From NCBI RefSeq assembly GCF_028595305.1, contig NZ_JAQQXS010000012.1, forward strand, positions 62,001-126,000: a stretch of 64,000 bases of DNA. Reading direction: 5' to 3'. Positions 15,128-47,922 of this stretch are shown in pieces. The translations under genes were made by a program, and so were the position numbers. The notes under the pieces are model-generated. The model saw nothing but the letters and a program-made list of their open reading frames with translations. It ran no database searches and had not been told where the DNA came from. The stretch is from Roseateles koreensis (lineage in GTDB: Bacteria; Pseudomonadota; Gammaproteobacteria; Burkholderiales; Burkholderiaceae_C). Numbering within the stretch: position 1 is the stretch's first letter; each line of letters begins with the position of its first letter.

Positions 15128-15154
15128 GAAGGCTCTTGCTCGCGTGTCATGTTT

Positions 15155-16054: not shown

Positions 16055-16061
16055 AGCTAGG

Positions 16062-23451: not shown

Positions 23452-23465
23452 GAATGCTCACAAAA

Positions 23466-23485: not shown

Positions 23486-23677
23486 TTTCGAGGCAAACAG
23501 GATGTCCAGTCCAAAGTGATGCGTCTGTCTCGTTCCGATGGCTGCAACCATTTAAAGCAAGATTTCTAAGAATTTCATTAAATTTGAGAAAGATTGCAAT
23601 AGTCGATGTGAATGTCTATGATTTCTTTCATGGTCTTGCGTGGATATGACGCCAGACCGACGAAACGGAGCACGCGT

Positions 23678-26352: not shown

Positions 26353-26408
26353 TCGGCGGGGAGAGCGTTTTAGGTCTATCGAGCCCGCAAGCAAGGGAGA
26401 AGAACAAG

Positions 26409-30383: not shown

Positions 30384-30506
30384 TCGGTATGTACTCGGAG
30401 TGCCAAATAAAGGCATCTGACTCCCACGCCGGCGCATATGCTCGTTGCCAAAATTATGAGCAACCAGCCGCATAAGACGGCGATGCCCACTCAGGGGAGG
30501 TCAACG

Positions 30507-33500
30507 TTGAAGCTAATAGTTCCGCCAGTATTTGGTGTCAACGAAAAGTACCGGCACGGCGCAATACGCCAAGTGCTCTTGGAGAAACAAGAGCTGTTCG
30601 GCCGGTTCGTAAGGTTCACAACCGACCAGGCGACCTGGCTTCGGTTCACGCCAGACGCCGGCGGGCCAGGCATCCTCCTTTTCAAGAAGGTACCCGACGG
30701 CTTCGCGATGCCGCCAGACGTCGCGGTCTTGGTGAGGTCGAGCCTCCCCGCGGAGGTACTTCCGGAGATTGACGCGCAAGAGGCCCAGTGGGCCCTGCAC
30801 CCGCTCTTGACCGCAACGGCCGCATTGGACATTGCGGGCAGGGCGCAACGTGCTCGCGAGTCCTGGCGGGGAGCGTTCCGTTACGCCGACGAGGACAGCG
30901 TCGTAAACGGCGCCATTGCGCTTCGGCGCCCTCAGGTTGGAGCGTTGCACGCCATTCACGCACATTGGTCGGTAAGCGACGGGGTGGCGACCGTCGTGAT
31001 GCCAACGGGAACGGGCAAGACCGAGACGATGCTCGCGACCACAGTCTCCAGCCAGTGCCAGCGCATCCTCGTTCTCGTGCCGACGGATGCGCTCCGAAGC
31101 CAGGTCGCTCAAAAGTTCGTCTCCCTTGGCGTGCTGAAGCTGGAAGGCAGCGTCATTCTTGACGCGGCGGTTCAGCGTCCGGTAGTCGGCATCATGACCT
31201 CGGCGCCCCGTGACATTGGCGAAGTCGACGCCCTGTTCACCACCTGCAATGTGGTCGTCACTACCAGCCAACTCGCGAGCAGATTCACGCCGGTGGTCAA
31301 GGCGCGCGTTGCATCTCTGTGCAGTCACTTGTTCATCGATGAGGCGCACCACGCGGAGGCACCGACCTGGAAGGAGTTCAAGGAGCACTACGCTGACAAG
31401 CGCGTGCTGCAGTTCACGGCCACGCCTTTCCGAGAAGATGACCGGCGCATCGACGGGAAAATCATCTACGTCTACCCATTGCGCAAGGCTCAGGCAGAAG
31501 GCTACTTCAGGCCCATCCGCTTCAGCCCAGTCTCTGAGTTCGGGTTCAAGAAGGCAGACCGGGCAATCGCTCAGCAGGTGCTGAAGGAACTTGACCTCGA
31601 CGCCACTGGAAAGCACGTGGCCATGGCCCGGGTCTCCTCAACCGACCGAGCAAACCAGGTATTTGCGATTTACCAGGAACTCGGCCGCTTCAACCCCGTT
31701 GTCCTTCACACAAAGATTTCCACGACGGAGCGCAAGGCTGCCCATGCAAAGCTGCGCACAGGGGAGTCGCGTATCGTCGTTTGCGTGGACATGCTGGGGG
31801 AAGGCTTCGATATGCCGGAGCTGAAGATTGCCGCGTTCCACGACCTGAGGAAGAGCCTAGCGGTAACGCTGCAGTTGGCAGGCCGGTTCACCCGCGCTCG
31901 AAGCGACCTGGGCGACCCTGTTTTCATCGCGAACACCGCGAGCGTCGACCTGACCGAAGAACTCGAAAAGCTCTACGCGCAGGACCCCGACTGGAACGAG
32001 CTCCTGCCGGAACTCAGTGAAGCGGCCATCGCAGATGAAGTCGGCGCGCAGGACTTCATGGCAGGGTTTGTGGGCAACCTCGGCGGCATCCCTATGAAGG
32101 AGTTGAACCCGTCCGCGAGTACCGTCGTCTTTCACACCGCCTGTGCGAACTGGACACCGAAGAAGTTTCGGAAGGGCATCCGCGGAGCGACCAAGTACGA
32201 GCAGGTGCACTCGACCCTCAATGAGAAGGACAACACGCTCGTCGTCATCACTGCAAACCGGCACGCAGTGCCGTGGACCGAAGTAGCGATTGTTCAGGAC
32301 TACTCCTGGGAGCTGTTCATCGCCTACTGGGACCGAGAGCGCCAGTTGCTATTCATCCACGGCTCCAGCAACAGCAGCGAATTCAAGGACCTGGCGAAGG
32401 CCTTGGCCGGAGACGACGTCACGCTCGTCGTTGACCCCATCGTGTACCGAACCTTCCACGGCATCAATCGCTTGCTGCTGACAAACGTCGGGCTTGACGA
32501 GCATTTCGGCCGACAAATTCGGTACACGGGACGAATGGGCGCCGACGTTGGGTCACGGCTGTCGGAAAGCACCAAGCAAGGCGCGCGGAAGGCTGTGCTG
32601 GCGGGCGTGGGGTTCGAGAATGGCTCGCGCACCACGATTGGTGCGGCCAAGCGTGGTCGCGTTTGGTCTGCGCAGCGCCTGCGCGTTGACACCTTCACGG
32701 CATGGTGCCGCAACATTGGCGGCAAGATTGTTGACGAGACTATCAATCCGGAGGAGGTCCTCAAAGGGACGCTTATCCCGCGCCAAGTCGATGCTCGTCC
32801 GGGCGTCGTGGCCATCGGCGTCGACTGGCCATCCGATGTCCTTGACGTCATTGAGTCGATGACGACAGTGGTTTGGCAGTACGGCGCAGAGAACCGACTG
32901 ACAGACCTCGGCATCGAGCTTGTCGAAACCAGCGCCGACAAGCCCCTTGTCTTCCGAGTCTTTACCGACGGGCGTGAGGTGCGCATCCGGCTGGAGTTGT
33001 TCCGCGTTAGCGATACGTCGACTGACTTCAAGTTCGTCTACGAAGGAAAAGACACCGCTCGAATTCGGCGTGGCGGCGAGCGCGACCTCTGCGAATATTT
33101 CACTGAGAAGGCGCCTACTATCTGGTTCGCTGATGGTTCTTCCTTGGAGGGCAACCTGTACGTCGAGCTTGTGAAGGCTTTGGAGCTGTACCCCGTCGAT
33201 AAGTTGGAAGTAGTCGACTGGACGGGCATCGACATCACGAAGGAATCACAGCGCGACGAGAAGCGACAGGACTCAGTCCAGTACCGCGTCATTGAGCTCC
33301 TGCGGAAGAAGGGCGGCTACGACGTTGTCTTCGACGACGACGGCTCTGGCGAGGCGGCGGATGTCGTTGCCATTCGCCTCGATGACCCGAGCAACCCCAA
33401 GCGAATTGAGGTGGAGCTGTATCACTGCAAGTTTTCGATGCAGCCCGAAGCGGGCGCCCGAGTTGACGACCTGTATGTGGTGTGCGGCCAGGCCCAGCGC

Positions 33501-33800
33501 AGCATCGTGTGGCTCCACAACCGAGACCGCCGTAAGGACCTGTTCAGCCACCTGTTGAAGCGCAACGAACAGCGAGTGGATGGCGGGCGTCCTACGCGGT
33601 TTGAGGTCGGCAATGACACGAGGCTCATCCAGCTTCGCGACCTGAGCAAGCGGTGCGAGCTGCGACTGTCGGTGTTCGCGGTGCAGCCCGGTGTCTCGCA
33701 GGCCAAGGTCAGCCCAAGCCAGCTAACGCTGCTCTCGGTAGTGGACCGGTACCTCCAGGAGACGTACCAACTTGACTTCCAGCTATGGTGCAGTGCCTGA
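30507..33800 (+). CDS. SF2 DEAD/DEAH-box helicase with C-terminal nuclease-like domain
   Basis: About 1097 residues if started at the TTG at 30507, which has an AGGGGAGG ribosome site 6 bases upstream. ATGs at 30438, 30456 and 30483 are in frame but lack one. Walker A MPTGTGKTE is near residue 167, DEAH (LFIDEAHHAE) near 277, FTATPF near 303, and SF2 motifs V/VI (MLGEGFDMPEL, QLAGRFTRAR) near 430-465. Near 940-980 the sequence YDVVFDDDGSGEAADVV...RIEVELYHCKFS fits a PD-(D/E)xK core (D...E-x-E/K pattern). It ends the four-gene operon with the GTPase. Helicase-nuclease fusions are common in anti-phage systems; the precise system is not one I recognise. Confidence 0.75.
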   Translation: MKLIVPPVFGVNEKYRHGAIRQVLLEKQELFGRFVRFTTDQATWLRFTPDAGGPGILLFKKVPDGFAMPPDVAVLVRSSLPAEVLPEIDAQEAQWALHPLLTATAALDIAGRAQRARESWRGAFRYADEDSVVNGAIALRRPQVGALHAIHAHWSVSDGVATVVMPTGTGKTETMLATTVSSQCQRILVLVPTDALRSQVAQKFVSLGVLKLEGSVILDAAVQRPVVGIMTSAPRDIGEVDALFTTCNVVVTTSQLASRFTPVVKARVASLCSHLFIDEAHHAEAPTWKEFKEHYADKRVLQFTATPFREDDRRIDGKIIYVYPLRKAQAEGYFRPIRFSPVSEFGFKKADRAIAQQVLKELDLDATGKHVAMARVSSTDRANQVFAIYQELGRFNPVVLHTKISTTERKAAHAKLRTGESRIVVCVDMLGEGFDMPELKIAAFHDLRKSLAVTLQLAGRFTRARSDLGDPVFIANTASVDLTEELEKLYAQDPDWNELLPELSEAAIADEVGAQDFMAGFVGNLGGIPMKELNPSASTVVFHTACANWTPKKFRKGIRGATKYEQVHSTLNEKDNTLVVITANRHAVPWTEVAIVQDYSWELFIAYWDRERQLLFIHGSSNSSEFKDLAKALAGDDVTLVVDPIVYRTFHGINRLLLTNVGLDEHFGRQIRYTGRMGADVGSRLSESTKQGARKAVLAGVGFENGSRTTIGAAKRGRVWSAQRLRVDTFTAWCRNIGGKIVDETINPEEVLKGTLIPRQVDARPGVVAIGVDWPSDVLDVIESMTTVVWQYGAENRLTDLGIELVETSADKPLVFRVFTDGREVRIRLELFRVSDTSTDFKFVYEGKDTARIRRGGERDLCEYFTEKAPTIWFADGSSLEGNLYVELVKALELYPVDKLEVVDWTGIDITKESQRDEKRQDSVQYRVIELLRKKGGYDVVFDDDGSGEAADVVAIRLDDPSNPKRIEVELYHCKFSMQPEAGARVDDLYVVCGQAQRSIVWLHNRDRRKDLFSHLLKRNEQRVDGGRPTRFEVGNDTRLIQLRDLSKRCELRLSVFAVQPGVSQAKVSPSQLTLLSVVDRYLQETYQLDFQLWCSA

Positions 33801-33833
33801 CGCGGAGCGGTGCCTTCGATAACGATGCGCGCT

Positions 33834-34385
33834 CTAGAGGTTGGCCAGAGCCTTCCAGCCAAGCTGCTCTTCGAACGCAGTTCTGAAGGGCGTGCAAACC
33901 TGGGCCGGCGCACGCTCAACGTATTCCCGCGCCGCGGCGCCCGCCTCCGAGCTCAGGCCCTTCAGGTACGCGACGGCCATGTCTGCCGACTCCGGCGCTT
34001 TGCCGTTCACACCGGCGAACTTCGGCCGCAGTGCAGTCCATACCACTGTATCGAACCCCTTCGCTTGCGCCCATTCGGCTATCTCGCCGGCGCCGACCGA
34101 GTGACGCGGTGCAGGACCTGGCCACAGACCAATTGCTTGCAGGTCGCAGCTTTCACGGCCAGCGAGCGCCGCACGGGCACTGTCTACGGTCGCGTAGTCG
34201 AGTTCAGCCCACAAGGTGGGCACCGGTGGGACGTCTGGCGTCAATACAAGCGTTAGACGCCCATCTCGAGAAGTTCGAGCGAACTCAAGAGGCAGGGCAG
34301 GGCCGCCCAACTGCCATTGCCCCGAGCAACGCAAGACGCCTGGCTTCCAGACCAACGAACCCCAACCGATGCACGCAATACGCAT
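33834..34385 (-). CDS. Gamma-glutamylcyclotransferase-like protein
   Basis: A 183-residue protein whose N-terminus MRIACIGWGSLVWKPGVL resembles the substrate-loop G(Y/W)GSL motif of the gamma-glutamylcyclotransferase/ChaC fold. The catalytic Glu of that fold is not obvious to me, so activity is uncertain. The body is a compact alpha/beta protein with no membrane segments. It is convergent with the helicase operon and 34 bp from its stop. A short inverted repeat lies just upstream of the start (34401-34420). Proteins of this type appear as single accessory genes in islands; the role here is unknown. Confidence 0.5.
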   Translation of the reverse strand: MRIACIGWGSLVWKPGVLRCSGQWQLGGPALPLEFARTSRDGRLTLVLTPDVPPVPTLWAELDYATVDSARAALAGRESCDLQAIGLWPGPAPRHSVGAGEIAEWAQAKGFDTVVWTALRPKFAGVNGKAPESADMAVAYLKGLSSEAGAAAREYVERAPAQVCTPFRTAFEEQLGWKALANL

Positions 34386-34400
34386 GGCGGCAGCTTACCT

Positions 34401-34420
34401 GCTTAGTTGCGTGACTAAGC
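34401..34420. promoter_or_regulatory. Inverted repeat GCTTAGT/ACTAAGC upstream of the cyclotransferase-like gene
   Basis: GCTTAGT (34401-34407) and ACTAAGC (34414-34420) are exact inverted repeats with a 6-bp spacer, 16 bp from the start codon at 34385. A third copy, CGCTTAGTC, lies at 34482-34490. It is a possible operator, with no T tract to suggest termination. Confidence 0.35.
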
Positions 34421-34484
34421 GCCGCTTGCGGCTGTGGGCGGTTCTCAGTTCGCGTTCGGGAGCAGTGCGAGCGGTCTACGCCGC

Positions 34485-34700
34485 TTAGTCATGAAGCCAA
34501 GGCACGACCGCCGCCGGATAGCCCAACTCGTCGGGCTGTAAATCTCGTTCATTGGGCAGCTGGACGAAGTTCTCGGTCGGAGATTCGCAAAGTCGGCAGT
34601 GCGTGCAGTTGTAGACCTGTTTCTCGTCTAGACCGGCGAGGATGGTTGCTCTAGCGGCCTCGTGCAAGACACCGCAAGTCGGACATTTACAGACCTTCAT
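34485..34700 (-). CDS. Small zinc-ribbon protein
   Basis: A 71-residue protein with two Cys pairs, CKCPTCG at residues 4-10 and CTHCRLC near 32-38, arranged like a rubredoxin/zinc-ribbon knuckle pair. The rest is acidic. Its ATG overlaps the stop of the upstream 384-residue gene (ATGA), so the two are translated together. No family name is recognised; metal binding is inferred from the Cys spacing. Confidence 0.65.
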   Translation of the reverse strand: MKVCKCPTCGVLHEAARATILAGLDEKQVYNCTHCRLCESPTENFVQLPNERDLQPDELGYPAAVVPWLHD

Positions 34701-35851
34701 GGACTGACCCTCTCGGCACTGGTTTCCGAAGCCTGCCCTCCGCTAATCAACTCCGCACGCACCACGACATCGAACTTGCGGCGGACCCAACAGCGATACC
34801 GCTGCCCTTCCGTGACTGTTTGAAGCGAGGCGATGCCTGGAGTGCGTGCGGTCAGGCTGAGTATGGTGCCGCCGTCCGTCATGAGATGCACCAGGCCGAA
34901 GCCTGGCAGCAGTTCGAACACGTCTGCCTCAGTCACTCTCTCGTGGTCGTGCAGGTCTCCTCCAACGCCAATGGTGGAGAAGGCATCTAACGTTGCGGCC
35001 GCGAGTGCCAGCGTGTCGTTGGACGGAACGCGACTGTGCCGCATGCGCTGCAGCTCAGTCTCTGTTGGAGACCTTCCGTCTCTGACCTCGACAAGTTCGC
35101 AAAGCAGCGCGTCTTGGTCGTTGAGGTCCACGAAATCAGCTTGTGGGAACGCTCTCAAAACCTTCTCGACCGCGTTTGTCATCGCCGCGTCCAGCGTCGT
35201 CGCCTGCTGCGAAAACTCGAGCAACATCACATGCCTCGGGGCCCTGAAGACTGCTGCGCTAATACATGTGGGTGCGTCTAGACGCTCCTCCAAATTGCCA
35301 CCGGTCAGCGGTTCATTGACTGCGGCTGCCAAGACGAAACGAAACTCCACGGAAGCATGGTCCGACGTCTGGAGATTCTCTGTAAGTGAACCCTCGGCAG
35401 TCATCCGGGCCACAAGTTCGTCGGGGGGATGTCCTCCAGACCGATTTGCTTTCGCGCCTTCCTCGATGGCCTGCTTGATGACTTTCCTCTGGCGCTCGGT
35501 CGGTTCGAAGTTGGCGGGCTCCAAAACACTTCCTTCCCCATCCCTGCTGCTCGTTGCGGACCGCTCGTCAAGGAGAAGGTCGTGTCGGTTCTCGTCTGAC
35601 AATTGGTCCAGCAGGTTCTGAAGCACTTCTCCGCCGGTGTTGCCCGTCGAGGCTGTTCTGGTCTCCAAGTGCGACTGGGCCTTTGGCGAGTGATGACGCG
35701 CTTGAGTCTTGGCATTGGTCAAATCGGCGAGCGCGGCGTCCAGCCGTTCGACGGGTCCTTTCGCTGCCCGACGCTTCATCAGGTACTGAAGTGTCCTGGC
35801 AACGGCGTTGCGTAGTGGGCTGCTCGAGCGGGTAGCTAGGTTTTTTTTCAT
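34697..35851 (-). CDS. Hypothetical protein, 384 residues, paired with a zinc-ribbon protein
   Basis: A soluble protein with a basic N-terminal stretch (MKKNLATRSSSPLRNAVARTL) and a low-complexity, probably disordered region to about residue 120. A C-terminal folded domain follows from about 175 to the end, including APRHVMLLEFSQQATTLDAA and DVFELLPGFGLVHLMTDGGT. The Shine-Dalgarno sequence before the ATG is weak, so a later start is possible. I recognise no family. The coupling to the zinc-ribbon gene suggests a two-component unit of unknown role. Confidence 0.6.
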   Translation of the reverse strand: MKKNLATRSSSPLRNAVARTLQYLMKRRAAKGPVERLDAALADLTNAKTQARHHSPKAQSHLETRTASTGNTGGEVLQNLLDQLSDENRHDLLLDERSATSSRDGEGSVLEPANFEPTERQRKVIKQAIEEGAKANRSGGHPPDELVARMTAEGSLTENLQTSDHASVEFRFVLAAAVNEPLTGGNLEERLDAPTCISAAVFRAPRHVMLLEFSQQATTLDAAMTNAVEKVLRAFPQADFVDLNDQDALLCELVEVRDGRSPTETELQRMRHSRVPSNDTLALAAATLDAFSTIGVGGDLHDHERVTEADVFELLPGFGLVHLMTDGGTILSLTARTPGIASLQTVTEGQRYRCWVRRKFDVVVRAELISGGQASETSAERVSP

Positions 35852-35877
35852 CTGAGGCGCCCGGGTTGAACGAACAA

Positions 35878-36432
35878 CTATCGGTCAGCGCGCGATGGCC
35901 GCTGGTAGATGGGGCGGCGCAAGGCGCTCCGCGCTGCTTCGAGATGGGAACGCCTGAGACAGCCATCGACGTCGCAGAGCACCACCCTTCCCGCCGTCTC
36001 AAGAGTGGACCCTTGAAGACTCTCGCCTGACTCGACGTCGTCCAGAACGAGAATTGCCTCGCCGTTGTGATGCTGCTCAAGCCATCGCTTGATAGCTTCC
36101 AGTCTTGTCACTCCACGATTTGTTGGCGCGTCCCATTGCTCGTGCAAGCTGCTTGCGACTTGGCTCAGCCCGCACCGGCCGAACACGTCGACGAAATGGT
36201 GACGGTCGAGCAGGGCTAGCCACGTTGTTGTCAGGACGAAACGTGGCTTGAATTGCTCCGCCAGCACGTTCAAGACCTCGATGGCCTCGGGTGCAAACAG
36301 CCTCTCATACAGGTCTGGGGCCGCATCTTCAAGGCGATACAAGGCGCGATAGACGTGCATCCCTCCAAACGGCAAGTTGGGACAGACGACCCCGTCGATG
36401 TCCAGAAAGACCGTAGGTTGCGGCGTAGTCAT
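35878..36432 (-). CDS. HAD-superfamily protein, second of a tandem pair
   Basis: A 184-residue protein with HAD motif I TVFLDIDGVVCPN near residue 10 (both Asp present), RFVLTTTWLA (motif II-like Thr) near 70, and the late acidic motif AILVLDDVES near 130. The layout resembles HAD domains linked to RNA repair ('Swiss army knife' HADs), a family often annotated in islands. Its ATG overlaps the stop of the upstream HAD gene (ATGA). Substrate unknown; phosphatase activity is plausible because the catalytic Asp is present. Confidence 0.75.
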   Translation of the reverse strand: MTTPQPTVFLDIDGVVCPNLPFGGMHVYRALYRLEDAAPDLYERLFAPEAIEVLNVLAEQFKPRFVLTTTWLALLDRHHFVDVFGRCGLSQVASSLHEQWDAPTNRGVTRLEAIKRWLEQHHNGEAILVLDDVESGESLQGSTLETAGRVVLCDVDGCLRRSHLEAARSALRRPIYQRPSRADR

Positions 36433-36920
36433 GGAATGCACTCTGAAAACGCCTGGTTGATTCGGCGGGCGACCAAGGGGTTGCCTAGACCTGTCCTGCC
36501 ATCGCACGCCACCAAGTGACGCCGTAACTCGGAGTCTGCTGGCCATCCATCTGTGTCGTCGTCCAAGGCTACCCAATGCTGAAGCTGATGCTCCTGCACG
36601 TATCGCCGCACAACGCCGTAGGAGGTGTTGACCTTCCTTGGCTCAAAGAGGGCGATGTACCGGACCACATCCCCGCAGGCACCCACTATTCGGGTGTGCA
36701 ACCACTCGGGTGCGAGCCCTGCCACTGGCTCCAATCCGAACATCATGGTCGAACTGGACCGAAGTACGACCTGTGCATCCCAGTCTTCTAGGACCGGCCG
36801 CAGCGGCTCCGCCCAGCAGAAGTGCGGTGGACCAACATGCGGATAGCCACGGAGTACTGCGTATTGAATGGACTTCGGATGGCAGGTGCCATCGAGATTC
36901 AAGAATAGCGTGGGGCGCAT
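36429..36920 (-). CDS. HAD-superfamily protein with altered nucleophile, first of a tandem pair
   Basis: A 163-residue protein with the same layout as its downstream neighbour: motif I RPTLFLNLDGTCHP near residue 8, VVLRSSST near 50, and a late acidic motif WVALDDDTDGW near 125. The first Asp of motif I, the nucleophile of HAD phosphatases, is Asn here (codon AAT). It is therefore probably not an ordinary phosphatase and may be a binding or regulatory partner. Start chosen at ATG 36920; an in-frame TTG at 36929 also exists. Confidence 0.7.
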   Translation of the reverse strand: MRPTLFLNLDGTCHPKSIQYAVLRGYPHVGPPHFCWAEPLRPVLEDWDAQVVLRSSSTMMFGLEPVAGLAPEWLHTRIVGACGDVVRYIALFEPRKVNTSYGVVRRYVQEHQLQHWVALDDDTDGWPADSELRRHLVACDGRTGLGNPLVARRINQAFSECIP

Positions 36921-36953
36921 GCGATGCAACAGAAGGGCAAGTCTGGGCGCACT

Positions 36954-37322
36954 TCAGTTCCCGAACGGCGGATATACCAAGATGCATGGCTCTAAGCCAG
37001 CTTCTGTCGGTTCGCCATCGATGCGGACCAGCAGCGTCGGCGCATTGGCGAACTGAACGGAGTAGGAGTTAGATGTCTGCGACGCGAAGGCCTTCTGCAC
37101 GGTGCCGAACATGACGCTGTCCGTTGACTGGCCAATCGGCGAGAAGAACGCGGAAATGCGAGATGGCTTCTTCCCGGCAAAGGCCAGAGCCTCGCCAAAG
37201 TCCAAGAAGGCGCGGCGGAGGGTGTCGACGCGGTCTCCCATCTTCTCGTCGATGTCCACGATGAACAAGTGTGTCGCGGGGTCGAGGCTGATGCCGCCCT
37301 TGGGCATGGCTTGAGTTTCCAT
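36954..37322 (-). CDS. Hypothetical protein, 122 residues
   Basis: A small alpha/beta protein starting at an ATG with GGAGGA 8 bases upstream, the best ribosome site in this part of the island. It has regular hydrophobic strands (THLFIVDIDEKMGD, PTLLVRIDGE, CILVYPPFGN) and no known catalytic motif. It lies 33 bp ahead of the tandem HAD genes in the same direction, so it is probably their operon leader. Divergent from the XRE regulator gene. Confidence 0.6.
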   Translation of the reverse strand: METQAMPKGGISLDPATHLFIVDIDEKMGDRVDTLRRAFLDFGEALAFAGKKPSRISAFFSPIGQSTDSVMFGTVQKAFASQTSNSYSVQFANAPTLLVRIDGEPTEAGLEPCILVYPPFGN

Positions 37323-37500
37323 GAAATGTCCTCCTCGCTCCTGGTTGTGAACCCTACGTGGAGGACCTGATGGAGTCGCTCCGGCAACCCCATAACGGGC
37401 GCTGCTATTGGGGAAAAAAAGATATGAATAGCCAGTATACGAAAAGCCGGTAGATAAATCGACTGTAGACGTTTCGACTGCGTTCTAGCACCGTGCGCGC

Positions 37501-37764
37501 ATGGATGAAACGAAGCTGGAGGGGTACGCCCTTCGAAAGATATTTGCAGCAGCTGTACAGGCGTATCGCAAGAAACTGGGCCTGTCCCAAGAGGCATTGG
37601 GCAGCAAGGCCGGGCTGCATCGGACGTACGTCAGCCAGGTCGAACAATGCCGCCAGGCGGCTACCTTGGACAGCATCGAGCGAATGGCGAACGCGCTCGG
37701 CGTCGCGCCGCATCTTTTGCTGAAGGCGCCACGAGAGAAAAAGGATGTCGACGACGCGTCATGA
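37501..37764 (+). CDS. XRE-family transcriptional regulator
   Basis: An 87-residue DNA-binding protein consisting almost entirely of one helix-turn-helix domain: YRKKLGLSQEALGSKAGLHR and TYVSQVEQCRQAATLDSIERMANALGV. It is typical of short XRE repressors and of R-M controller proteins. It faces away from the 122-residue gene across a 178-bp AT-rich intergenic region that probably holds both promoters. Its target cannot be told; local autoregulation of the divergent gene or control of the island operons is possible. Confidence 0.85.
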   Translation: MDETKLEGYALRKIFAAAVQAYRKKLGLSQEALGSKAGLHRTYVSQVEQCRQAATLDSIERMANALGVAPHLLLKAPREKKDVDDAS

Positions 37765-37893
37765 GCGGGCCGCCTCAGTGACAGCGCATTTGCCGTTCGT
37801 CTCCAACCCTAACCGCAGCCGGGGGGCGATTGGGCATCTTCGGGATGCAGCCCTTCAACGGACGGGTGAAGCGGTTGCTGTCAAACTCTCGCC

Positions 37894-39033
37894 ATGGCAG
37901 AAAAAAGACGATACATCGCGACCGTCGTCGACACGCTCGACGAGGTCGACGAGAACGATTGGCAGAGGCTGGCGGGGACTAATCCCTTCGTGAGCTACCA
38001 GTTCCTCAAGCTGCTTCAGACAGCTGGCTGTGCCACAGGCGCCACGGGCTGGCATCCCAGCTTCCTGCTCCTCCATGAAGGCGAAGAGCTCGTCGGCGTC
38101 GCGCCGGCGTACCTGAAGACCCATTCCCGCGGCGAGTTCGTATTCGACCAGGCATGGGCACAAGCCTTCGAACAACACGGCCTGCGGTACTACCCCAAGA
38201 TTCTGGTTGCCGCGCCATTTACGCCCGTCCAAGGGCCGCGGTTGCTCGCCAAGGATGAGGACGCTCGCCGAGCGCTTGCGGAAGCGTTGGCCGCCCTCTG
38301 CAACGCAGCCCAAGGCTCTTCTGTCCATGTCCTGTTCACCGAGCCTCAAGACCAAGCAGCGCTCGTCGAAGCCGGCTTCATGCTTCGCGAGGGTGTTCAG
38401 TTTCACTGGGAGAACGATGCCTACGGAACTACAGAGGACTTCCTGGCCAAACTGTCCCATGACAAGCGCAAGAAAATTCGACAGGACTCGAAGTACGTTG
38501 CCGCCGCCGGGCTCACCTACCGATGCCTCGAGGGCGATGAACTGCAACGCGAGCACCTGGAGTTTTTTTACGCCTGCTACGTGAATACGTACCAGGAGCA
38601 CTGGTCCCGGCCGTATTTGAGCTTCGAGTTCTTCCTGCGGGCCCATGAGGAGCGAATCCTCCACTTCGTCCTCATCTTGGCCGAGCGCGGGAGTCAGCCG
38701 ATGGCAGTCGCCCTGAACGTTCGGGCCGGCGACTCCTTGTACGGGCGCCACTGGGGCGCGTTGGAGTTCGTCAAGGGCATTCACTTCGAGACCTGCTACA
38801 TGCAGTCCATCGCGTACTGCATTCGAGAAGGCCTCAAGTACTTCGAAGGCGGCGCACAGGGTGAGCACAAGATGTCGCGAGGCCTTATGCCTGTGAAGAC
38901 GTACTCGGCCCACTGGGTCGCCGACCGGCAGTTCGCTGTCGCCATCGAGGACTTCTTGCATCGCGAGACGCAGGCCGTGGATGGCTATGTCGACCAGCTG
39001 GCGAAGGCGAGCCCGTTCAAGCGCGTCGAGTAG
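37894..39033 (+). CDS. Full-length GNAT/DUF482 protein carried by the island, homologue of the interrupted host gene
   Basis: A 379-residue protein of the DUF482 ('peptidogalycan biosynthesis'/GNAT) family. It aligns along its whole length with the split host gene: GATGWHPSFLLLHE, PAYLKTHSRGEFVFDQAWAQAF, YYPKILVAAPFTPVQGPRLL, GVQFHWEN, EDFLAKLSHDKRKKIRQ, YGRHWGALE, and the motif YFEGGAQGEHKMSRGLMPV. The two are clearly different sequences, so this is not a recent duplication. It ends 5 bp from the stop of the island's tyrosine recombinase (tail to tail), so it is physically linked to the mobilisation genes. It may replace the function lost on insertion. The biochemical activity of the family is not established. 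Confidence 0.9.
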   Translation: MAEKRRYIATVVDTLDEVDENDWQRLAGTNPFVSYQFLKLLQTAGCATGATGWHPSFLLLHEGEELVGVAPAYLKTHSRGEFVFDQAWAQAFEQHGLRYYPKILVAAPFTPVQGPRLLAKDEDARRALAEALAALCNAAQGSSVHVLFTEPQDQAALVEAGFMLREGVQFHWENDAYGTTEDFLAKLSHDKRKKIRQDSKYVAAAGLTYRCLEGDELQREHLEFFYACYVNTYQEHWSRPYLSFEFFLRAHEERILHFVLILAERGSQPMAVALNVRAGDSLYGRHWGALEFVKGIHFETCYMQSIAYCIREGLKYFEGGAQGEHKMSRGLMPVKTYSAHWVADRQFAVAIEDFLHRETQAVDGYVDQLAKASPFKRVE

Positions 39034-39038
39034 CGCAC

Positions 39039-40367
39039 TCAAGCAGCGCGCAACAGGACGCTTCTCTCCGTTTCGAGCCGTCGCACTTTCAGACCCATGT
39101 CCATGAGTTGAATTCGAAGCATCGCTACTTCGGTGCGCAGTTCACTCTCGACGCTTCGCGAGAAGAAGGAACTCATCACTCGCATATAGGTCTTGTAGGC
39201 CAGACTGGACGCCCATCCAAATCTTTGAGAGACCGCCGCGACCACGTCTTCGTGGGCGGTCGAGCGGCCGTCTCTGATGCGGGATTGGATTTCAATGCGC
39301 ATCGCCTCATCCGCTGTCCCACGTCGTAGCGCGTGATAGCCGGCTCCCTTTGGGGCTCCGATTTGCCGAAAGACGGTGCTGAAGATGGTGGAGAGTGTCT
39401 TGCCTTTGAGCGGATGCCCAGTGGTTGAGGACAAGAAGATGCGTCCGTCGGCGAAGTTCGGCTTGAGACCCAGCCGCTTGAGGATGGCCTTGGGGCCGTA
39501 GAGTGGGTCATCGATGTAGGCCTTGATTCGATGTGCCAACGGCCACGGGATGCCGAAGAAGTTCACGCGGCTGAATTTTTGGGAGTCCGGTTGGACGGGG
39601 AACGACTCGTCGCCGGCGTTCATCGCAGCCTGCATTCGTTCGTCAGAGAAGTCCTCCTCATGCAAACTCAACGCGGAGGCTCTGCGCCAGCCCACGTGGT
39701 TGCCTATCAGCGCGAGGATGTTGTTCCGCAAGGCTGCCCCAACGTCCGGTTGCCGGTTGAAGATTTCGATTGCCTCGTTCACGTGGCTGGTCGTCGCCCA
39801 AAACTGCGGGAGAGCCGTTCGACTGCCTTCGCCTACGCCTTGAAAGAGGAGGGGGAATTTTTCTTTCGATGACCGTAGGTGTGGGTGGTCGTCGATGTCG
39901 GGCAAAGAAGACGCCACCTTGCAGTCTTTGCGTCCGAGCGTGCCCTTTGCAAGCACGCCATTGGTCTGCGCCCAATGCAGGAAGTGGTAGATGTGGCGGA
40001 GGTTGACGTTGGTGGTCCGGCGTGCCGTCAAGTCTCCTCGACTGTTCCGGTTCGCCTTCGTGCGCGCGTGCGCCCAATTGCGGTATTTCGCGAGCAGAGC
40101 GTCATCAACCAGAGTCAGCAGTTGTTCAATCGACTCCCTCGCCTTACGCTTGGTCAGAAGGAATTCGATGAAGCTGTTCAGTGCGTTCGCAGGCGGCTCG
40201 ATATTCGATGCGACAACGGTGGGTTTTGAGCCGAATGTCGTCAATTCAGAATATTTCTCCCGAAGGTATGTGTTAACGGAGCCTATGAGATTGTGCTGGT
40301 CGTCACGAAGCGACGGAAATGGTCCGCTTTCCCTCCTTTCCCAATGTGTCGTTACTCGAATCTTCAA
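39039..40367 (-). CDS. Tyrosine recombinase/integrase, last gene of the mobilisation operon
   Basis: A 442-residue site-specific recombinase. The catalytic domain shows the first Arg in GNHVGWRRASALSLHEEDF near residue 228, the H-x-x-R box YHALRRGTADEA near 347, and the nucleophile Tyr in SLAYKTYMRVMSS near 395. A C-terminal coiled coil follows (ELRTEVAMLRIQLMDMG), unusual for integrases and perhaps used for partner binding. The start is TTG at 40367, with GGAGG 7 bases upstream, overlapping the preceding gene by 65 bp. It is the most conventional recombinase in the operon and the best candidate for the strand-exchange enzyme. Confidence 0.85.
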   Translation of the reverse strand: MKIRVTTHWERRESGPFPSLRDDQHNLIGSVNTYLREKYSELTTFGSKPTVVASNIEPPANALNSFIEFLLTKRKARESIEQLLTLVDDALLAKYRNWAHARTKANRNSRGDLTARRTTNVNLRHIYHFLHWAQTNGVLAKGTLGRKDCKVASSLPDIDDHPHLRSSKEKFPLLFQGVGEGSRTALPQFWATTSHVNEAIEIFNRQPDVGAALRNNILALIGNHVGWRRASALSLHEEDFSDERMQAAMNAGDESFPVQPDSQKFSRVNFFGIPWPLAHRIKAYIDDPLYGPKAILKRLGLKPNFADGRIFLSSTTGHPLKGKTLSTIFSTVFRQIGAPKGAGYHALRRGTADEAMRIEIQSRIRDGRSTAHEDVVAAVSQRFGWASSLAYKTYMRVMSSFFSRSVESELRTEVAMLRIQLMDMGLKVRRLETERSVLLRAA

Positions 40368-42243
40368 GATTGTCCTCCGGTTCTACCCGCTCATCCTCGT
40401 TGAAATATTCAGCGGGTATTTCCTCGCCGACGAATACACAGATGACTTTCTCCGTGCTTATGCCAATGGCCAAGTCAACGCACGACTTGCCCGATTTCCA
40501 ATCCTCTAGTACGATGATTACGCAATCCCATATATCGCTATGCCAATCATTAATCGTTGAGGCATACCCCAGCTCGAGCGCCTTTCTCTCACTGGCAGGA
40601 ACGAAAACTTCATTTCGCTCGTCCACTCCAACAGTGAACAAAAAATAATCTCTGGCCTGCCCGGGAATTCCTTCAGGTGTTACGAAGACCTTGGAGATTT
40701 GTCCGGTCATGCCGGCATTTGCCCCCAGATGCAAATGGCTCGAATTCCAACGCACCGGGTCCCCTATGGTCGCGTGTTGGCCCCTTGAAATCTGTACTTG
40801 AACAAATTGTTGTTTCTGTTGTTTTAGATAATCGACCCTCTCTAGATGTAGTTTCTTGTTTAGCTCATCGGCATCCTCAGCCGATTGGCAGAGTATTAAA
40901 GTTGGTCCATCTAGTTCGTGAGTCCGATACAAAAATAGTGCTTCATCAATTAATGCCTCGCGCGTTGGGATTGGTATTGATGAAATGGCCTTTTCGGCGC
41001 CTGCTGCCTTCCAACACTTCAGACGTGTGGGGCCGACGGCGCAGCCCATGACGGAGTTCGGATGGGCCTGATGCGCAGCGCCCATCAGGGTGAAGCGGTC
41101 GGCCGAAACCCGACTCAGGATGCGCAAGAGCGCGCAGAAGTCGATGCCGTCGGTGCCGTGGATGACCGCCGTCTGCCGTGACCGGGGTTTCGCATCACTG
41201 GCTTCGGCAAAGAGGTCGCCCCAAGTCGCCCAATCGCTAGCCTTTGTCGCCTTGGCCCACCGATGGCTGGGGAACACGTGAAAGGCGTCAGGTGCGTCCG
41301 CGACGGCTTCGCTGGATGCGTGGAATCTGCGGCGCGGCGATGCAACCGTGAATCGCGCCCCGCGAGCCGAGCGCAGCGACAAATGCCGGGCGGCAGCATT
41401 AGATAGACGCATGCCTGCGTGGTCTTGGTACACGTCAACTTTGCCTCGCGTGAGCGTCAAGTTCTGAACTTGCAGGCTGTCCTCGATTGCTATTTCGGCG
41501 AGGCGACGCTCCAGAACCAAGCTCACAAGGCGAGATAACAACTCGTCCTTCTCGAAAAACCAGCGGTAGCGAGTTCCATCCTGGAAATATGCAGCGGTGA
41601 CCGCCCCGCGGAGACGCCGAACGTCGTCTTCGGCGATGGAAGCCGACCGACCTTTTGCGTCAAGCCGGTGCCATTCGACAAGGGGAGCCAAGCAGTACGG
41701 GTTCGCCTTCACTCGCTCGGAAGCGTCTGGCCACATGTCAACGAGTGTCCGCAGATTCCGTGGACTCACCTTCATGCCGAGCGTCTCATCCATGAGGCGG
41801 AGTTCCTCGAGATAGGCCTGCCACTGCAGACAGAGTGCACCTGCCGCGCTCTCGGAGACGCCGCAAGCGACGAGTCTGTCCACTTCATTCGTACCGAGCC
41901 AAGACGTGAGCTCGTCAAAGCTTGCGGCTTCAAGGCTACGAATGTCAGCGTTGCTGAGGAATGAGAACTGAGGTTGACCCGCCAGGAGCTGGCGCAACGC
42001 CGCGGCAGTATGCGGAGGAATAATGTGGCCCTTCTTCGCGACAAAACCGACGCCGGCGGACTCTGACTGCGCTACGTGGCCAATGGCGGCAAACGACTCG
42101 CCGCGCCGGGGCGGATGCTCAAAAGCATCTTTGACGGCCCGAAATCTATCGAGTCGATTGCTCGCGTCCAGATAGGTGATGAAGAAACTGACCTCGTTCG
42201 ACAGCGACTCAGTTCGGGCGACAGTGCCTTCGATGGAGTTCAA
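40303..42243 (-). CDS. RecD2-like protein without a recognisable Walker A motif
   Basis: A 646-residue protein with the RecD2 helicase domain order. An N-terminal OB-like part is followed by a helix-hairpin-helix region (GVSESAAGALCLQWQAYLEEL), then ANPYCLAPLVEW, winged-helix segments (DDVRRLRGAVTAAYFQ), and late RecD2-type segments. These are GDPVRWNSSHLHLGANAGMTG (SH3-like insertion) and ALELGYASTINDWHSDIWDC (equivalent of LAYAITVHKSQG). Where Walker A should be, the sequence is IHGTDGIDFCALLRIL, lacking the Gly-Lys-Ser/Thr. The DNA-binding framework is kept but the ATPase looks lost. The TTG start overlaps the upstream TGA (TTGA). Confidence 0.6.
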   Translation of the reverse strand: MNSIEGTVARTESLSNEVSFFITYLDASNRLDRFRAVKDAFEHPPRRGESFAAIGHVAQSESAGVGFVAKKGHIIPPHTAAALRQLLAGQPQFSFLSNADIRSLEAASFDELTSWLGTNEVDRLVACGVSESAAGALCLQWQAYLEELRLMDETLGMKVSPRNLRTLVDMWPDASERVKANPYCLAPLVEWHRLDAKGRSASIAEDDVRRLRGAVTAAYFQDGTRYRWFFEKDELLSRLVSLVLERRLAEIAIEDSLQVQNLTLTRGKVDVYQDHAGMRLSNAAARHLSLRSARGARFTVASPRRRFHASSEAVADAPDAFHVFPSHRWAKATKASDWATWGDLFAEASDAKPRSRQTAVIHGTDGIDFCALLRILSRVSADRFTLMGAAHQAHPNSVMGCAVGPTRLKCWKAAGAEKAISSIPIPTREALIDEALFLYRTHELDGPTLILCQSAEDADELNKKLHLERVDYLKQQKQQFVQVQISRGQHATIGDPVRWNSSHLHLGANAGMTGQISKVFVTPEGIPGQARDYFLFTVGVDERNEVFVPASERKALELGYASTINDWHSDIWDCVIIVLEDWKSGKSCVDLAIGISTEKVICVFVGEEIPAEYFNEDERVEPEDNLEDSSNDTLGKEGKRTISVAS

Positions 42244-42584
42244 GGTGCCTCCAACGACATGCCGTCATTCAACAGCAGGCGAAGCGCCGTTAGCTCGCTG
42301 TTGAGCGCGCGAATCTGGAGGTCCCTCCCGAGGACGGCAATTGCGACCGAGCCCTCAGCCTTCTTGTCGGGCGCAGGGACCTTCTTCAATGACGCGTCGA
42401 GCCCATTGAAGAGTTCGCCGATTTTTGGATTTGAGGTGACGGTCGACCGAGAGATTTCCAGCTCAGCGCAAATCGTGGACCGGCACGCCCCGCCGACCCG
42501 ATTCCGTGGAACCTTGTTCAGCGGCGTCTTCTTGACCCACTCGGTTAGGCGTTCGAAGTTGTTATTGCCTTTGGCTTGGGACAT
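42240..42584 (-). CDS. Small HTH plus coiled-coil protein of the mobilisation operon
   Basis: A 114-residue protein. Residues 30-60 (GACRSTICAELEISRSTVTS then NPKIGELF) resemble a helix-turn-helix with a following N-P-K, a pattern seen in small accessory proteins of Tn554-type transposition modules and related recombinase trios. The C-terminal stretch (LQIRALNSELTALRLLL) is a short coiled coil. It overlaps the upstream gene by 23 bp and the RecD2-like gene by 4 bp. It probably binds ends or promoter DNA; this is inferred. Confidence 0.65.
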   Translation of the reverse strand: MSQAKGNNNFERLTEWVKKTPLNKVPRNRVGGACRSTICAELEISRSTVTSNPKIGELFNGLDASLKKVPAPDKKAEGSVAIAVLGRDLQIRALNSELTALRLLLNDGMSLEAP

Positions 42585-43206
42585 TTTCGGATTCCTTGAT
42601 GAGGCGGAGTGAGTTCGCGTCGTAGAGCGCCTTTGTAAGCGCGGCCACGCGTTCCTCGAGCTTGGTGACGTGATAGAGGGTCACCTCGTCGTTGTTCTGA
42701 ATGGTCCGAGTCAATGTCGAGACTAAGCTGCCGAGGGATTCAGTCTTGTCGGTAAGCGAATTTATGTCGCGCTCCTGAATCTGGGTGAGATTGGTGAGCA
42801 GCTTAATAGTCAGCTTTTGCGCCGAGATGATGTCCGCATGGTTTTCAGCGTTCAACTGAGGCGTGGCAATGTCCTGCACTTTAGCGATGGCAGTGGTCAC
42901 ATCTTTGAGCAGGTCCTTATGGTAGGTTTGTGCCAATGTCCCTTTGCTGATTCGTTCGAAATGCTTGATGCTTTCTTTGACTGAGCAAGTGAAGTTGTCT
43001 TCCGATATCCACTTGGCGAACTCCGCAGGCGTGGTGGGAAAGTATTCAAGAATTCTGCGCCCCTTGCGGTCAAGCAGGTAGCCGTCGCCAAGCTTCCGCC
43101 ACGGAATGCCCCCCTTCTGAGTGGCCCACGCTGTCAAGACTCGAATCTTGGCCTTGGCCTTGCGTTCGGTGTCTTCTTTGGCGGTCTCTGCAGAGTGTTT
43201 AGTCAT
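42562..43206 (-). CDS. Basic coiled-coil protein of the mobilisation operon
   Basis: A 214-residue protein with a Lys/Arg-rich N-terminus and a central region with regular hydrophobic heptads (LLKDVTTAIAKVQDI, LVSTLTRTIQNNDEV, VTKLEERVAALTKALYD). I chose the ATG at 43206, which has GAGGG 8 bases upstream and overlaps the upstream stop; a TTG at 43242 is also in frame. A segment GIPWRKLGDGYLLDRKGRRIL near 35 may be a small beta domain. No family is recognised. Confidence 0.6.
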   Translation of the reverse strand: MTKHSAETAKEDTERKAKAKIRVLTAWATQKGGIPWRKLGDGYLLDRKGRRILEYFPTTPAEFAKWISEDNFTCSVKESIKHFERISKGTLAQTYHKDLLKDVTTAIAKVQDIATPQLNAENHADIISAQKLTIKLLTNLTQIQERDINSLTDKTESLGSLVSTLTRTIQNNDEVTLYHVTKLEERVAALTKALYDANSLRLIKESENVPSQRQ

Positions 43207-45529
43207 CCTTGCCCTCGCTCGATTCTTTGCCCGGGAACGCAATTGAGGCCGCCCAGAAAATCTTCTTGAAAGTGGCCTGGGTCACATTGGCCATCTGGCT
43301 CTCTGCATCGATGAGCTCTTGCATTCGAGCTGCGGCATCGGCAGATTGGGCCCGTGCCGCAGCCGGGAGGCGCATGTTCTTGGACTGCTTGAGCATGAGC
43401 TCCCGCTCATCAACGTAGATTGATTGGACCGACTCGGAAGTCGCATGGTTGATGCAGCCGCTACAGACGGACGGACTCTTCCGGTCGGGCTCCGGTCCTG
43501 ATGCTCCTGTGCAGTGGGCTTGCTTGCGGGTATGACGAGCGGAACCGAGCATGCAGGGCCCCGGCCCTGGCTCCGCACGGTATCCGCGTTTGATGAGTCG
43601 TGTGGACAGAAGGTCCGCGCGTTGGTCGAGTGTTCCTGCCCGGAATCTGGCTGAGCGTGCCAGCCCTTTGCACAGCGCCGCAACGAGCAATGGGAACTTT
43701 CCGCCAACTCGTTCGCCCGAAAGTAGGCGTCGGACGTAGTGGGCGAGCAGCTCCTGGCCCCCCTCTTCGGCCAGCAGATTGATTTCCGCCTCTTCGCGCT
43801 TGCGCCAGAGGCGATATGCCCTGCGGTCTTCCGGCCGGCCCGCCGGGTCTGTGTAGTAGGGGGTCAGATGGTCCAAAGAGAACTGACCGACCTGCCGATT
43901 TAGAGAGAGCAGGCTCTTGTGTTCAAAACGGAACATGTGGACCAGAATGAAGATTCGTCGGAACGGAGGGTGTGTTCCATCGAAGAGCTCCTTTCTCAGG
44001 CCTGCACGGCTCAGAAGCAAGGTGCAGTCTCGGGTCCAGTCGAACTCCCAAGTCGGAGGCTCACGAACGTCCGCGCTGTAATCTCTATAGCGGAAGAGCC
44101 AATGTGTTCGACGACGCTTGGCCAGCTTCTTTCGTGCTGGAAGGACTTCGTCGGTTCCGCTAAGGAGCCTGTCGAGGCTCTCCAGAAGCATGACGCAATC
44201 CGATGTGGAGTCGTTGCAGGGAAAGTCGTGCCAACCAGGTAGCCCAGACTTCTTCTGCAAGTGCGAATCTAAGCGATGCGTGCCGCTCGACTCACCCGCT
44301 TGCGTTACGCAGCCGTGATAAAAACCATATTTCTTCTTATGCCCAACAACTTCATTTATTCTGCGACCGTTGTATGTGGCGGAAAGTGCGGCGACAGCGG
44401 AGAAAAGGGTTTTGACTAAACAATTAATAAATTGGCTATCGTTTAAACCGATGCCCACGCCAGCCAGTCCGACGGAGTTCAGAATCTTCTCAAACTTCGG
44501 GCGATATTCGGGCAGTTGTTCAATGGCGTTAAATTTCCCGGCTGATACCGCGCTTTTCGATGCGATTCTGCATAGCTCCAAGATTTGGACGACGCCCCTG
44601 CCGTATGTGTAAACCCAATGGTTGCATTCGGTAAACAGGGCTGTGGCCTCTTCTGGCGAAATGTTCGCAGTCCCCCCTGCCGTGCCCGCGAAAACATCGT
44701 TTCTAATCTTTTGCAGTTCCCGCATTGGGATAGAGGGAATCGATTGGACGCTCGGCGACATCGGGCTGAACGCCCGAAGAGTATTGTTGAGTGTTTTTGA
44801 CTGTGCCGCACTGGTTGCAGAAGGGACGTCCGTGACTTGTCCGAGCCCAGGCCGTTTAAACTTCTCGGCGAGCGCTTGCCTGAACCACAGAGGGATATCA
44901 AAGTTTGCAACCGGAATTCCGATGAGTTCGGAAAGTGCTGTGGGCACCAAGACGTCATTTCGACCAACCAGAAGTCCGCGAAAGGTCTCCAATTGGGGGG
45001 ACTTCAAGAGCGCCTTGAGCGCATCATTCAGCGCCAAAATTTCCGACCATCCCTTTAGGGCAACATCGGTACCAAGCTCAATCAATTCCCCTCGAGAAAT
45101 CGTGCCTGGAGAGTAGTGACCCCGTCGAATTGCCCAAATCGCAATTCTGGTGCATGCCATAAAAACCCTGGGAACATCGCTTGTGGAGACGTCAGAATCT
45201 GGACTAGGGAGGGCGGCATTGATTGCTCCTTTGATGCCGTTGACCCAGTCCGGAAATTCAGTCAGAAAGACAATCCTTTTCAACGGAAATGCGCCAGTCG
45301 AAAGGTTTATTTTCGTCTTGCCCAAATGAAAGTGGCGGATGCGTTCGCCCTTTGTGCTTGGGCCGGACAAATCTACTGTAATGACGTCCGCTTCGAAATC
45401 GGACATGTAGCGAGGATGAAGGGGCAACTCGCCCAGCCCTGGGAAAGGCGATTCCGGCCGGTCGGCAGTGCCTGCCTTCCGGGTTGACGCTTCAGAGACC
45501 TGGAAAATATCCTTAGCAGGCTTGTGCAT
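43199..45529 (-). CDS. Very large tyrosine-recombinase-like protein with C-terminal Cys/His region
   Basis: A 776-residue protein, twice the size of a normal integrase. The catalytic residues look complete: Arg in YNGRRINEVVGHKK near 388, H-x-x-R in VHMFRFEHKSLLSL near 530, and the Tyr in VGQFSLDHLTPYYTDP near 555. A further 200 residues follow, including GPCMLGSARHTRKQAHCTG and SVCSGCINHA, a likely zinc-binding region. It overlaps the upstream recombinase gene by 17 bp. Large recombinases with extra domains are found in Tn554-type modules and in the described gamma-mobile-trio islands; exact relation needs a profile search. Confidence 0.7.
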   Translation of the reverse strand: MHKPAKDIFQVSEASTRKAGTADRPESPFPGLGELPLHPRYMSDFEADVITVDLSGPSTKGERIRHFHLGKTKINLSTGAFPLKRIVFLTEFPDWVNGIKGAINAALPSPDSDVSTSDVPRVFMACTRIAIWAIRRGHYSPGTISRGELIELGTDVALKGWSEILALNDALKALLKSPQLETFRGLLVGRNDVLVPTALSELIGIPVANFDIPLWFRQALAEKFKRPGLGQVTDVPSATSAAQSKTLNNTLRAFSPMSPSVQSIPSIPMRELQKIRNDVFAGTAGGTANISPEEATALFTECNHWVYTYGRGVVQILELCRIASKSAVSAGKFNAIEQLPEYRPKFEKILNSVGLAGVGIGLNDSQFINCLVKTLFSAVAALSATYNGRRINEVVGHKKKYGFYHGCVTQAGESSGTHRLDSHLQKKSGLPGWHDFPCNDSTSDCVMLLESLDRLLSGTDEVLPARKKLAKRRRTHWLFRYRDYSADVREPPTWEFDWTRDCTLLLSRAGLRKELFDGTHPPFRRIFILVHMFRFEHKSLLSLNRQVGQFSLDHLTPYYTDPAGRPEDRRAYRLWRKREEAEINLLAEEGGQELLAHYVRRLLSGERVGGKFPLLVAALCKGLARSARFRAGTLDQRADLLSTRLIKRGYRAEPGPGPCMLGSARHTRKQAHCTGASGPEPDRKSPSVCSGCINHATSESVQSIYVDERELMLKQSKNMRLPAAARAQSADAAARMQELIDAESQMANVTQATFKKIFWAASIAFPGKESSEGKDD

Positions 45530-47480: not shown

Positions 47481-47495
47481 GCACGGACCATATCG

Positions 47496-47534
47496 CACAC
47501 TCAGTCAGGCGGATAGATGGTGTGACTGAGTGTG
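47496..47534. promoter_or_regulatory. 12-bp inverted repeat upstream of the mobilisation operon
   Basis: CACACTCAGTCA (47496-47507) and TGACTGAGTGTG (47523-47534) are exact inverted repeats with a 15-bp spacer, 16 bp before the ATG at 47480. A partial copy (TCAGTCAGTCGG) lies nearer the island end. It is a plausible operator for autoregulation by the HTH or recombinase proteins, or a recombinase-binding site. Confidence 0.5.
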
Positions 47535-47644
47535 TCAAATCCTCTACGCTCGGCGCGGCAGACCGCCGCGTCCCGCCCCCCCCTCCGCACCACCCCCATG
47601 GATAGCCGAATGCCGTTCGTCTCAGTCAGTCGGCCAGTTGTTGG

Positions 47645-47652
47645 TTGCGACA
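47645..47652 (-). repeat. Right terminal inverted-repeat arm TTGCGACA
   Basis: Exact inverse of TGTCGCAA at 10837-10844. Six bases (CAGCGC) separate it from the direct repeat on this side. Confidence 0.6.
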
Positions 47653-47658
47653 CAGCGC

Positions 47659-47665
47659 GACATAT
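47659..47665. repeat. Right copy of the 7-bp direct repeat flanking the island (attR core)
   Basis: GACATAT here equals 10831-10837. It is followed by host coding sequence on the minus strand (…YLKSHSYGEYV). Confidence 0.8.
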
Positions 47666-47922
47666 TCACCGTAGGAGTGGCTCTTTAAATAGGCGGGGCA
47701 GGCAGCGACCAAGGTGTCATCCAACCAGACGCTCAAGAATTGAGGCTGCCAACCCGTGGCTGCCGTGGCGCTGAGGCTGTTTGTCAGGGCTTGCAGGTAG
47801 TCCAGGCGCATAAAGGGCGTGGGCTGCGACTGGATTGAAAGCAATTCGTTCCAGGCGGGAACAGGGAGTTCAGAGGGGTCGCCGTGGACCCGAATGACAT
47901 AATCAGGCAGCCTCGTTTTCAA
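47659..47922 (-). pseudogene. N-terminal part (88 codons) of the host GNAT/DUF482 gene split by the island
   Basis: The proximal part of the gene whose C-terminal part lies at 9922-10837. It starts at a TTG (47922), as the upstream frame is closed by a stop; GAGG lies about 9 bases upstream. It encodes a part ending ATGWQPQFLSVWLDDTLVAA and PAYLKSHSYGEYV, matching the island homologue's GATGWHPSFLLLHEGEELVG and PAYLKTHSRGEFV. In the island it reads on for ten foreign codons (ALCRNQQLAD) and stops at 47626. It is divergent from nadE, 11 bp away, so its native promoter is on this side and the distal part is now cut off from it. Confidence 0.88.

Follow-up and report, generated by a model that had tools for sequence, protein, structure and literature searches.

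A tyrosine-recombinase island that splits a conserved DUF482 gene and carries a complete divergent copy of it

A large genomic island in Roseateles koreensis cuts through a conserved, normally single-copy DUF482 gene and carries a complete, divergent homologue of the same gene. It lies in a stretch of 64,000 nucleotides, the whole of which we call the window. R. koreensis shares its order with Burkholderia relatives that carry similar islands, and in the five islands now known the insertion site, the recombinase operon and the slot of the extra DUF482 gene are the same. The extra copy travels together with the islands rather than with their hosts, and it is under purifying selection. Most probably we are dealing with a multi-tyrosine-recombinase island, GInt-, SE- or RIT-like, which has a built-in replacement for its target gene. 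The spare copy looks like a repair device rendering the insertion harmless. We infer that it is expressed and replaces the host function, so that insertion is nearly neutral.

The interrupted gene and the island in the window

The features of the window are collected in Table 1. The host DUF482 gene (minus strand) is cut between its GEY and VFD codons, and the joined flanks give one in-frame protein of 390 aa. Among 17 further Roseateles genomes, 16 have an intact single ortholog with 70-77% identity to the joined host protein, the remaining one has a DUF482 fragment only, at a contig end, and a second DUF482 copy was found in none of the 17. In the family sample DUF482 was present in 366 of 401 genomes, normally in single copy; about 6% of the good family genomes gave no match, so the gene is not universally essential. 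About 54 genomes of the family had more than one DUF482 match, and the 42 inspected contained neither a second full copy nor a distant split at residue 83. The two or three partial matches seen in family genomes might have been taken for interrupted genes; this was rejected, as the inspected pieces were adjacent in-gene gaps, frameshifts and contig ends.

Table 1. Coordinates of the island, its genes and the interrupted host gene (positions within the window)
Feature	Position	Strand	Description
C-terminal part of interrupted host DUF482 gene	9922..10833	-	begins VFDWAW...
attL	10828..10841	-	element arm CGACATAT, 6-bp spacer GTCTTC (codons V-F), then host GAC...
Integrated island	10834..47661		36.8 kb; element body 10834-47655 plus 6-bp spacer kept at right end
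Cargo: type I restriction-modification genes (R, S, M)	11819..18958	-	
Cargo: Septu-like PtuA/PtuB pair	20399..22614	-	
TPR protein	26304-30383		PIN-TPR-GreABC domain
ResIII/DEAD helicase	30438-33800		
Helix-turn-helix regulator	37501..37764	+	upstream of DUF482 copy, codirectional
Island-borne full-length DUF482/PF04339 copy	37894..39033	+	379 aa
Gene F	39039..40367	-	tyrosine recombinase, 442 aa
Gene E	40303..42243	-	646 aa, RecD2-like (HHH domain)
Gene D	42240..42584	-	114 aa; weak similarity to VPA1267 family (NF040697), below cut-off
Gene C	42562..43242	-	226 aa, small conserved operon protein
Gene B	43199..45532	-	777 aa; RR..E, RR.F and Y motifs are invariant
Gene A	45513..47498	-	661 aa; first operon gene, at the N-fragment end; conserved first in all relatives
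attR	47648..47670	-	host GGTGAATAT, 6-bp spacer GTCGCG, element arm CTGTGTCG
N-terminal part of interrupted host DUF482 gene	47662..47922	-	ends ...HSYGEY; residues 1-89 of joined protein

The bounds of the island are based on the in-frame fusion of its flanks into a single DUF482 gene and on an attachment scheme that is common to the five islands. In all of them host GGYGARTAY stands on one side and GAY on the other. The 6-bp spacer GTNTTC (codons V-F) is kept at attL, while the attR spacer, also of 6 bp, is variable, and the spacers are bordered by arms of the element in inverted orientation, CGACATA(A/T) and TTATGTCG or variants of these; in the window the right element arm is an inverted repeat of the left one. 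Fusing the host sides gives back an in-frame GEYVFD in 5/5 islands. The attL pattern occurs once in the window and not once in 100 shuffles. A 7-bp direct repeat of the window, GACATAT, was rejected as a general target duplication, being absent in the other islands; it is a coincidence which arises from the similarity of the attachment sites.

The island-borne copy matches the PF04339 profile (DUF482, FemAB_like) from position 2 to position 369 of 369 with 463 bits at a cut-off of 27, and is thus a full-length member of this family, which we take to be FemAB/GNAT-like. Its identity to the joined host protein is 44% (168 identities over 378 aligned residues), and the comparison with the separate host pieces gave E values of 6e-86 for the C-terminal and 2e-10 for the N-terminal part, so that a chance match can be dismissed. 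Its stop ends at 39033 and the stop of the recombinase ORF on the opposite strand begins at 39039, which leaves a gap of 5 bp between two genes lying tail to tail. The original prediction, made from the letters of the window, had a full-length homologue at this distance from the integrase stop that aligns with the interrupted protein and yet is divergent; both points are confirmed. Since the copy and gene F are convergent, the copy is outside the recombinase operon. A search by consensus for sigma-70-like promoters ahead of the copy was negative, which is weak evidence in this bacterial group, and the upstream position of the helix-turn-helix regulator is not conserved in the other islands.

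The operon itself is on the minus strand and runs A-B-C-D-E-F from the right end of the island, beside the N-terminal host fragment. In an alignment of 10 homologs the residues R228, K264, H345, R348 and Y394 of gene F were invariant or nearly so, and the AlphaFold model of its product (pLDDT 84) had XerA, XerH, Cre and IntI as top Foldseek matches. Judging by this R..K..HxxR..Y catalytic set and by the modelled Xer/Cre fold, gene F is a tyrosine recombinase, and the retention of both supports site-specific tyrosine recombination. Gene A is a probable tyrosine recombinase, and gene B probably encodes a large tyrosine-recombinase-like protein, to judge from its motifs. A predicted structure of B was discarded as too poor (pLDDT 59). 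Gene D reached 23.7 bits against the VPA1267 family, whose cut-off is 90 bits, and gene E resembles RecD2 helicases in part. Pfam and NCBIfam gave no name for A, B, C or F. Scans of IMG/VR and plasmids for close relatives of B, and of GTDB contigs for those of F, found none because these proteins diverge quickly.

As to the cargo of the window, the type I restriction-modification genes and the Septu-like PtuAB pair resemble a defence island. Further inside, the gene of the TPR protein adjoins that of the ResIII/DEAD helicase, and the two possibly form an undescribed defence pair.

Further islands and four-gene relatives

Does the same operon go with the same target and with the same extra gene elsewhere? 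Further islands were located through a search with the DUF482 copy and through the DNA pattern of attL instead of through the recombinases. When other genomes were searched with the copy, its nearest relatives lay in 58 genomes of a single genus from a different family. In Caballeronia (Burkholderia) peredens LMG 29314 (G1164) and in a second genome of the same genus (G1174) the host DUF482 gene is split at residue 83, the islands are about 115 kb and about 107 kb long, and a full-length second copy lies inside each. The left-junction pattern CGACATANGTNTTYGAYNNNNCNTGG, scanned over one genome per species, occurred at four places, namely G1164, Paraburkholderia ribeironis (RIB), Burkholderia sp. 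WSM2232 (W2232) and one chance match. RIB and W2232 each have a split host gene and a complete extra copy; the two host fragments of P. ribeironis are on different contigs. The chance match, in a Rhizobiales MAG (L156), was rejected, as this genome has a single uninterrupted DUF482 gene, and neither the operon nor a DUF482 homolog is present at the match.

In 5/5 islands the six genes A-B-C-D-E-F follow in the same order and the DUF482 copy is convergent with F at a distance of 2 to 85 bp, the ends of the two ORFs slightly overlapping in WSM2232. In G1174 F and probably B are disrupted by insertion sequences. All five six-gene islands sit in DUF482 at identical codons and have the full-length copy beside F. 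Their length varies from about 37 to 115 kb, the cargo other than DUF482 differs among them, and their recombinase genes are only 22-39% identical, with one short alignment of D reaching 51%. The expectation that islands with this operon would hit DUF482 and bring a DUF482 copy next to the integrase was thus borne out in every six-gene island.

More distant relatives are four-gene A-B-C-F modules. Five of them are inserted in comM (yifB) (G207, G378, G352, G1261 and G1253; loci L020, L024, L034, L189 and L191), and three genomes have them at other places (G061, G1369 and G1354). The comM modules are like the six-gene islands in having homologous A, B, C and F in the same order and in interrupting a conserved gene; they differ in the target and in having no replacement copy of comM or of DUF482. 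None of the eight genomes with four-gene modules has a second DUF482 gene, and none of the five comM-inserted cases a second comM. Gene E is absent from the comM modules and D was not found there; among the islands examined E is confined to the DUF482-targeting group (the window, L151, L170 and L171) and is lacking in the four-gene modules. The copy is accordingly present in 5/5 six-gene and 0/8 four-gene cases (Fisher p 0.0008, with the islands taken as independent, which is only roughly true), and so the replacement copy belongs to the DUF482-targeting group. Related islands at other loci or without a copy, which had been named as evidence against the prediction, do not occur among the six-gene islands (0/5); they do occur, but only among these more distant four-gene modules.

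One of the eight genomes, G061, has the A-B-C-F module twice (L029 and L031, on contigs C1 and C2) with identical match statistics. These modules adjoin DnaB-like and dCMP-deaminase-like genes and have a phage- or plasmid-like look.

Origin of the copies and competing explanations

In protein trees each split gene groups with orthologs from its own genus or from close relatives, and the island copies do not. The host fragments are 89-98% identical to the nearest intact relatives in four hosts (78% for the C-terminal part of the window gene), so the split genes are still recognisable as local orthologs, while the copies are foreign. Both the trees and the identities group the copies by island and not by host. 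Those of W2232 and RIB are 93% identical mutually and 54% to the genes they split, which argues that the island copies were not made from the host gene, and those of G1164 and G1174 are 91% identical mutually and 70-72% to their hosts. Some copies are just 44-55% identical to the genes they would replace. For the two close pairs of copies dN/dS was 0.038 and 0.040 (NG86; approximate values, dS being near saturation), so the copies are under strong purifying selection and encode working proteins.

The window copy forms a long branch at the base of a group that unites the island copies with the chromosomal DUF482 genes of the Caballeronia genus. Monophyly of the five island copies was mildly rejected (AU p 0.035), which places these chromosomal genes among them. 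The chromosomal DUF482 of this genus may be derived from an island copy; alternatively, its ancestor may have been captured by the islands. A takeover of chromosomal DUF482 by the island copy in the genus of C. peredens is possible.

Two further observations concern the chromosomal DUF482 of the C. peredens genus (L114, L118-L147). It groups with the island copies and not with the Paraburkholderia or window-family orthologs. The NAD synthetase gene adjoining it looks unlike the one beside the gene of the window.

Surprisingly, copies that are 91-93% identical (L151/L148, L169-L171) are attached to recombinase operons of only 23-39% identity. Between W2232 and RIB, DNA homology is limited to the DUF482 gene, between two unrelated flanks, and it ends at the recombinase-side end of this gene. 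Near-identical copies beside such different operons mean that copy and recombinase module are probably exchanged and reassort, possibly when islands meet at the common site and recombine through the copy.

How would such an island persist in a conserved gene? In the mechanism that we propose, a lineage of integrase-trio islands would target the single-copy DUF482 gene at its conserved GEY|VFD codons, strand exchange around the 6-bp spacer (codons V-F) would cut the host gene in two, and the element would supply its own divergent full-length DUF482, convergent with the last recombinase gene. As the element would bring its own DUF482, the recipient cell would keep a DUF482 protein; with the cost of insertion removed in this way, selection would not purge the island, and loss of the island's copy would cost the carrier the DUF482 function.

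The original prediction had allowed that the copy might be captured cargo. On this reading it would be ordinary acquired DNA that is a homolog of the target by chance, perhaps obtained through imprecise excision from an earlier host. GInts are reported to acquire cargo from related bacteria (PMC5385486). The copies are closest to the chromosomal genes of one genus (52-57% for the window copy, about 70-73% for the others), so capture from that ancestry is likely as their ultimate origin. As an explanation of what the copy does in the islands, however, capture seems improbable to us. It would have to account for an invariant slot in five islands with recombinases that share just 22-39% identity, for the absence of the copy from related modules with other targets, for trees in which the copies follow the island and not the host, and for a dN/dS of about 0.04 while the rest of the cargo differs. 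Invariant position, grouping and purifying selection together disfavour this alternative.

Nor do we give much credence to a recombination handle, in which the copy would mainly serve as shared homology between operon and cargo for module swaps at the common site. The identity of 91-93% between copies beside operons of 23-39%, together with DNA homology that in W2232 and RIB covers the DUF482 gene alone, is what a handle would produce, but strong purifying selection on the protein would be left unexplained, as would the choice of a target homolog as the handle. Such use may have arisen as a side effect of replacement. A decoy or immunity function, with the copy offering later islands a second attachment site or denying them one, has hardly any probability in our view: the copy still encodes a GE(Y/F)VFD site and in the window its attachment arm is altered (GAGTTC against GARTAY), but the attB-like sequence is retained in the four other copies and no island was seen inserted in a copy.

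Replacement of the target gene by a copy that the island brings therefore remains the reading we prefer. A stronger form of it is conceivable, though we regard it as rather doubtful. Replacement would here be an obligatory and exchangeable module: unrelated DUF482-hitting operons would have been paired repeatedly with the same island-borne gene lineage, and the island copy would have become the sole chromosomal DUF482 throughout the genus of C. peredens.

Comparison with known integrative elements

The general view is that integrative elements avoid harm by inserting at gene ends, in tRNA genes or between genes. Islands in tRNA genes and prophages rebuild the 3′ end of the gene, so that DNA supplied by the element avoids the cost of insertion. 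These elements usually rebuild the end of the same gene, whereas our island carries a separate, divergent and complete gene, about 9-14 kb inside and in the opposite orientation. RIT (recombinase in trio) elements have three adjacent tyrosine recombinases and are small, without large cargo; compared by description, the present islands, of about 37 to 115 kb and with six-gene operons, are not compact in this way. The Gamma-Mobile-Trio (GMT) islands, reportedly described by Mahata et al. in 2024, are alike in their defence-rich cargo and in a link to the VPA1267 family, which for gene D is weak. GMT islands are marked by the proteins GmtX, GmtY and GmtZ; A, B, C and F had no convincing match to any NCBIfam model, a set in which the Gmt proteins may not be represented.

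GInts share several features with the island. According to the portion of the GInt study that we draw on (Bardaji et al. 2017, PMC5385486), they have an operon of several tyrosine recombinases at one end with variable cargo directly after it, high target specificity with imperfect flanking repeats and a 6-nt spacer, and very low identity between operons with a common insertion site. All five islands insert at the same codons, and their sequences fit imperfect flanking repeats with a 6-nt staggered exchange. Their operon, too, stands at one end and is followed by cargo. GInts have three tyrosine-recombinase-like proteins plus a small protein; of the possible counterparts in our island, F is a tyrosine recombinase, and A and B are assigned by motifs only. 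Unlike ginABCD as presented there, the island operon has six genes, of which the third and fourth encode small proteins and the last a tyrosine recombinase. GInts next to a duplicated ribonucleotide reductase gene are also reported (PMC5385486). The same portion of the study (PMC5385486) has GInts inserted at gene ends or between genes, the targets not being fully inactivated and outward promoters helping to spare them; our island cuts the interior of its target, and a replacement target gene does not figure in that portion.

SEs, in the part of their description that is relevant here (PMC10214605), likewise combine several tyrosine recombinases and small proteins with inverted arms and a 6-bp spacer. 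They keep the attB spacer at attL and leave a "fingerprint" of the element at attR, which fits the five islands. Their median size is 15.7 kb, their genes were reported to lack homologs in Betaproteobacteria (PMC10214605), and the same part of the source mentions no copy of the target gene. From these descriptions the island would appear to work like GInts and SEs, with an operon of different content and order.

Limited literature searches found no precedent for replacement of a target gene, and as far as the searched literature shows, a conserved gene that is cut through together with a full divergent replacement carried by the same element is new. A large island here cuts a conserved single-copy gene and would pay for it with its own complete copy, and this is repeated across genera. 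It becomes possible to test directly what integration costs, how element and host depend on each other and how a mobile gene takes the place of a core gene, and the same arrangement would explain second, divergent copies of core genes inside islands.
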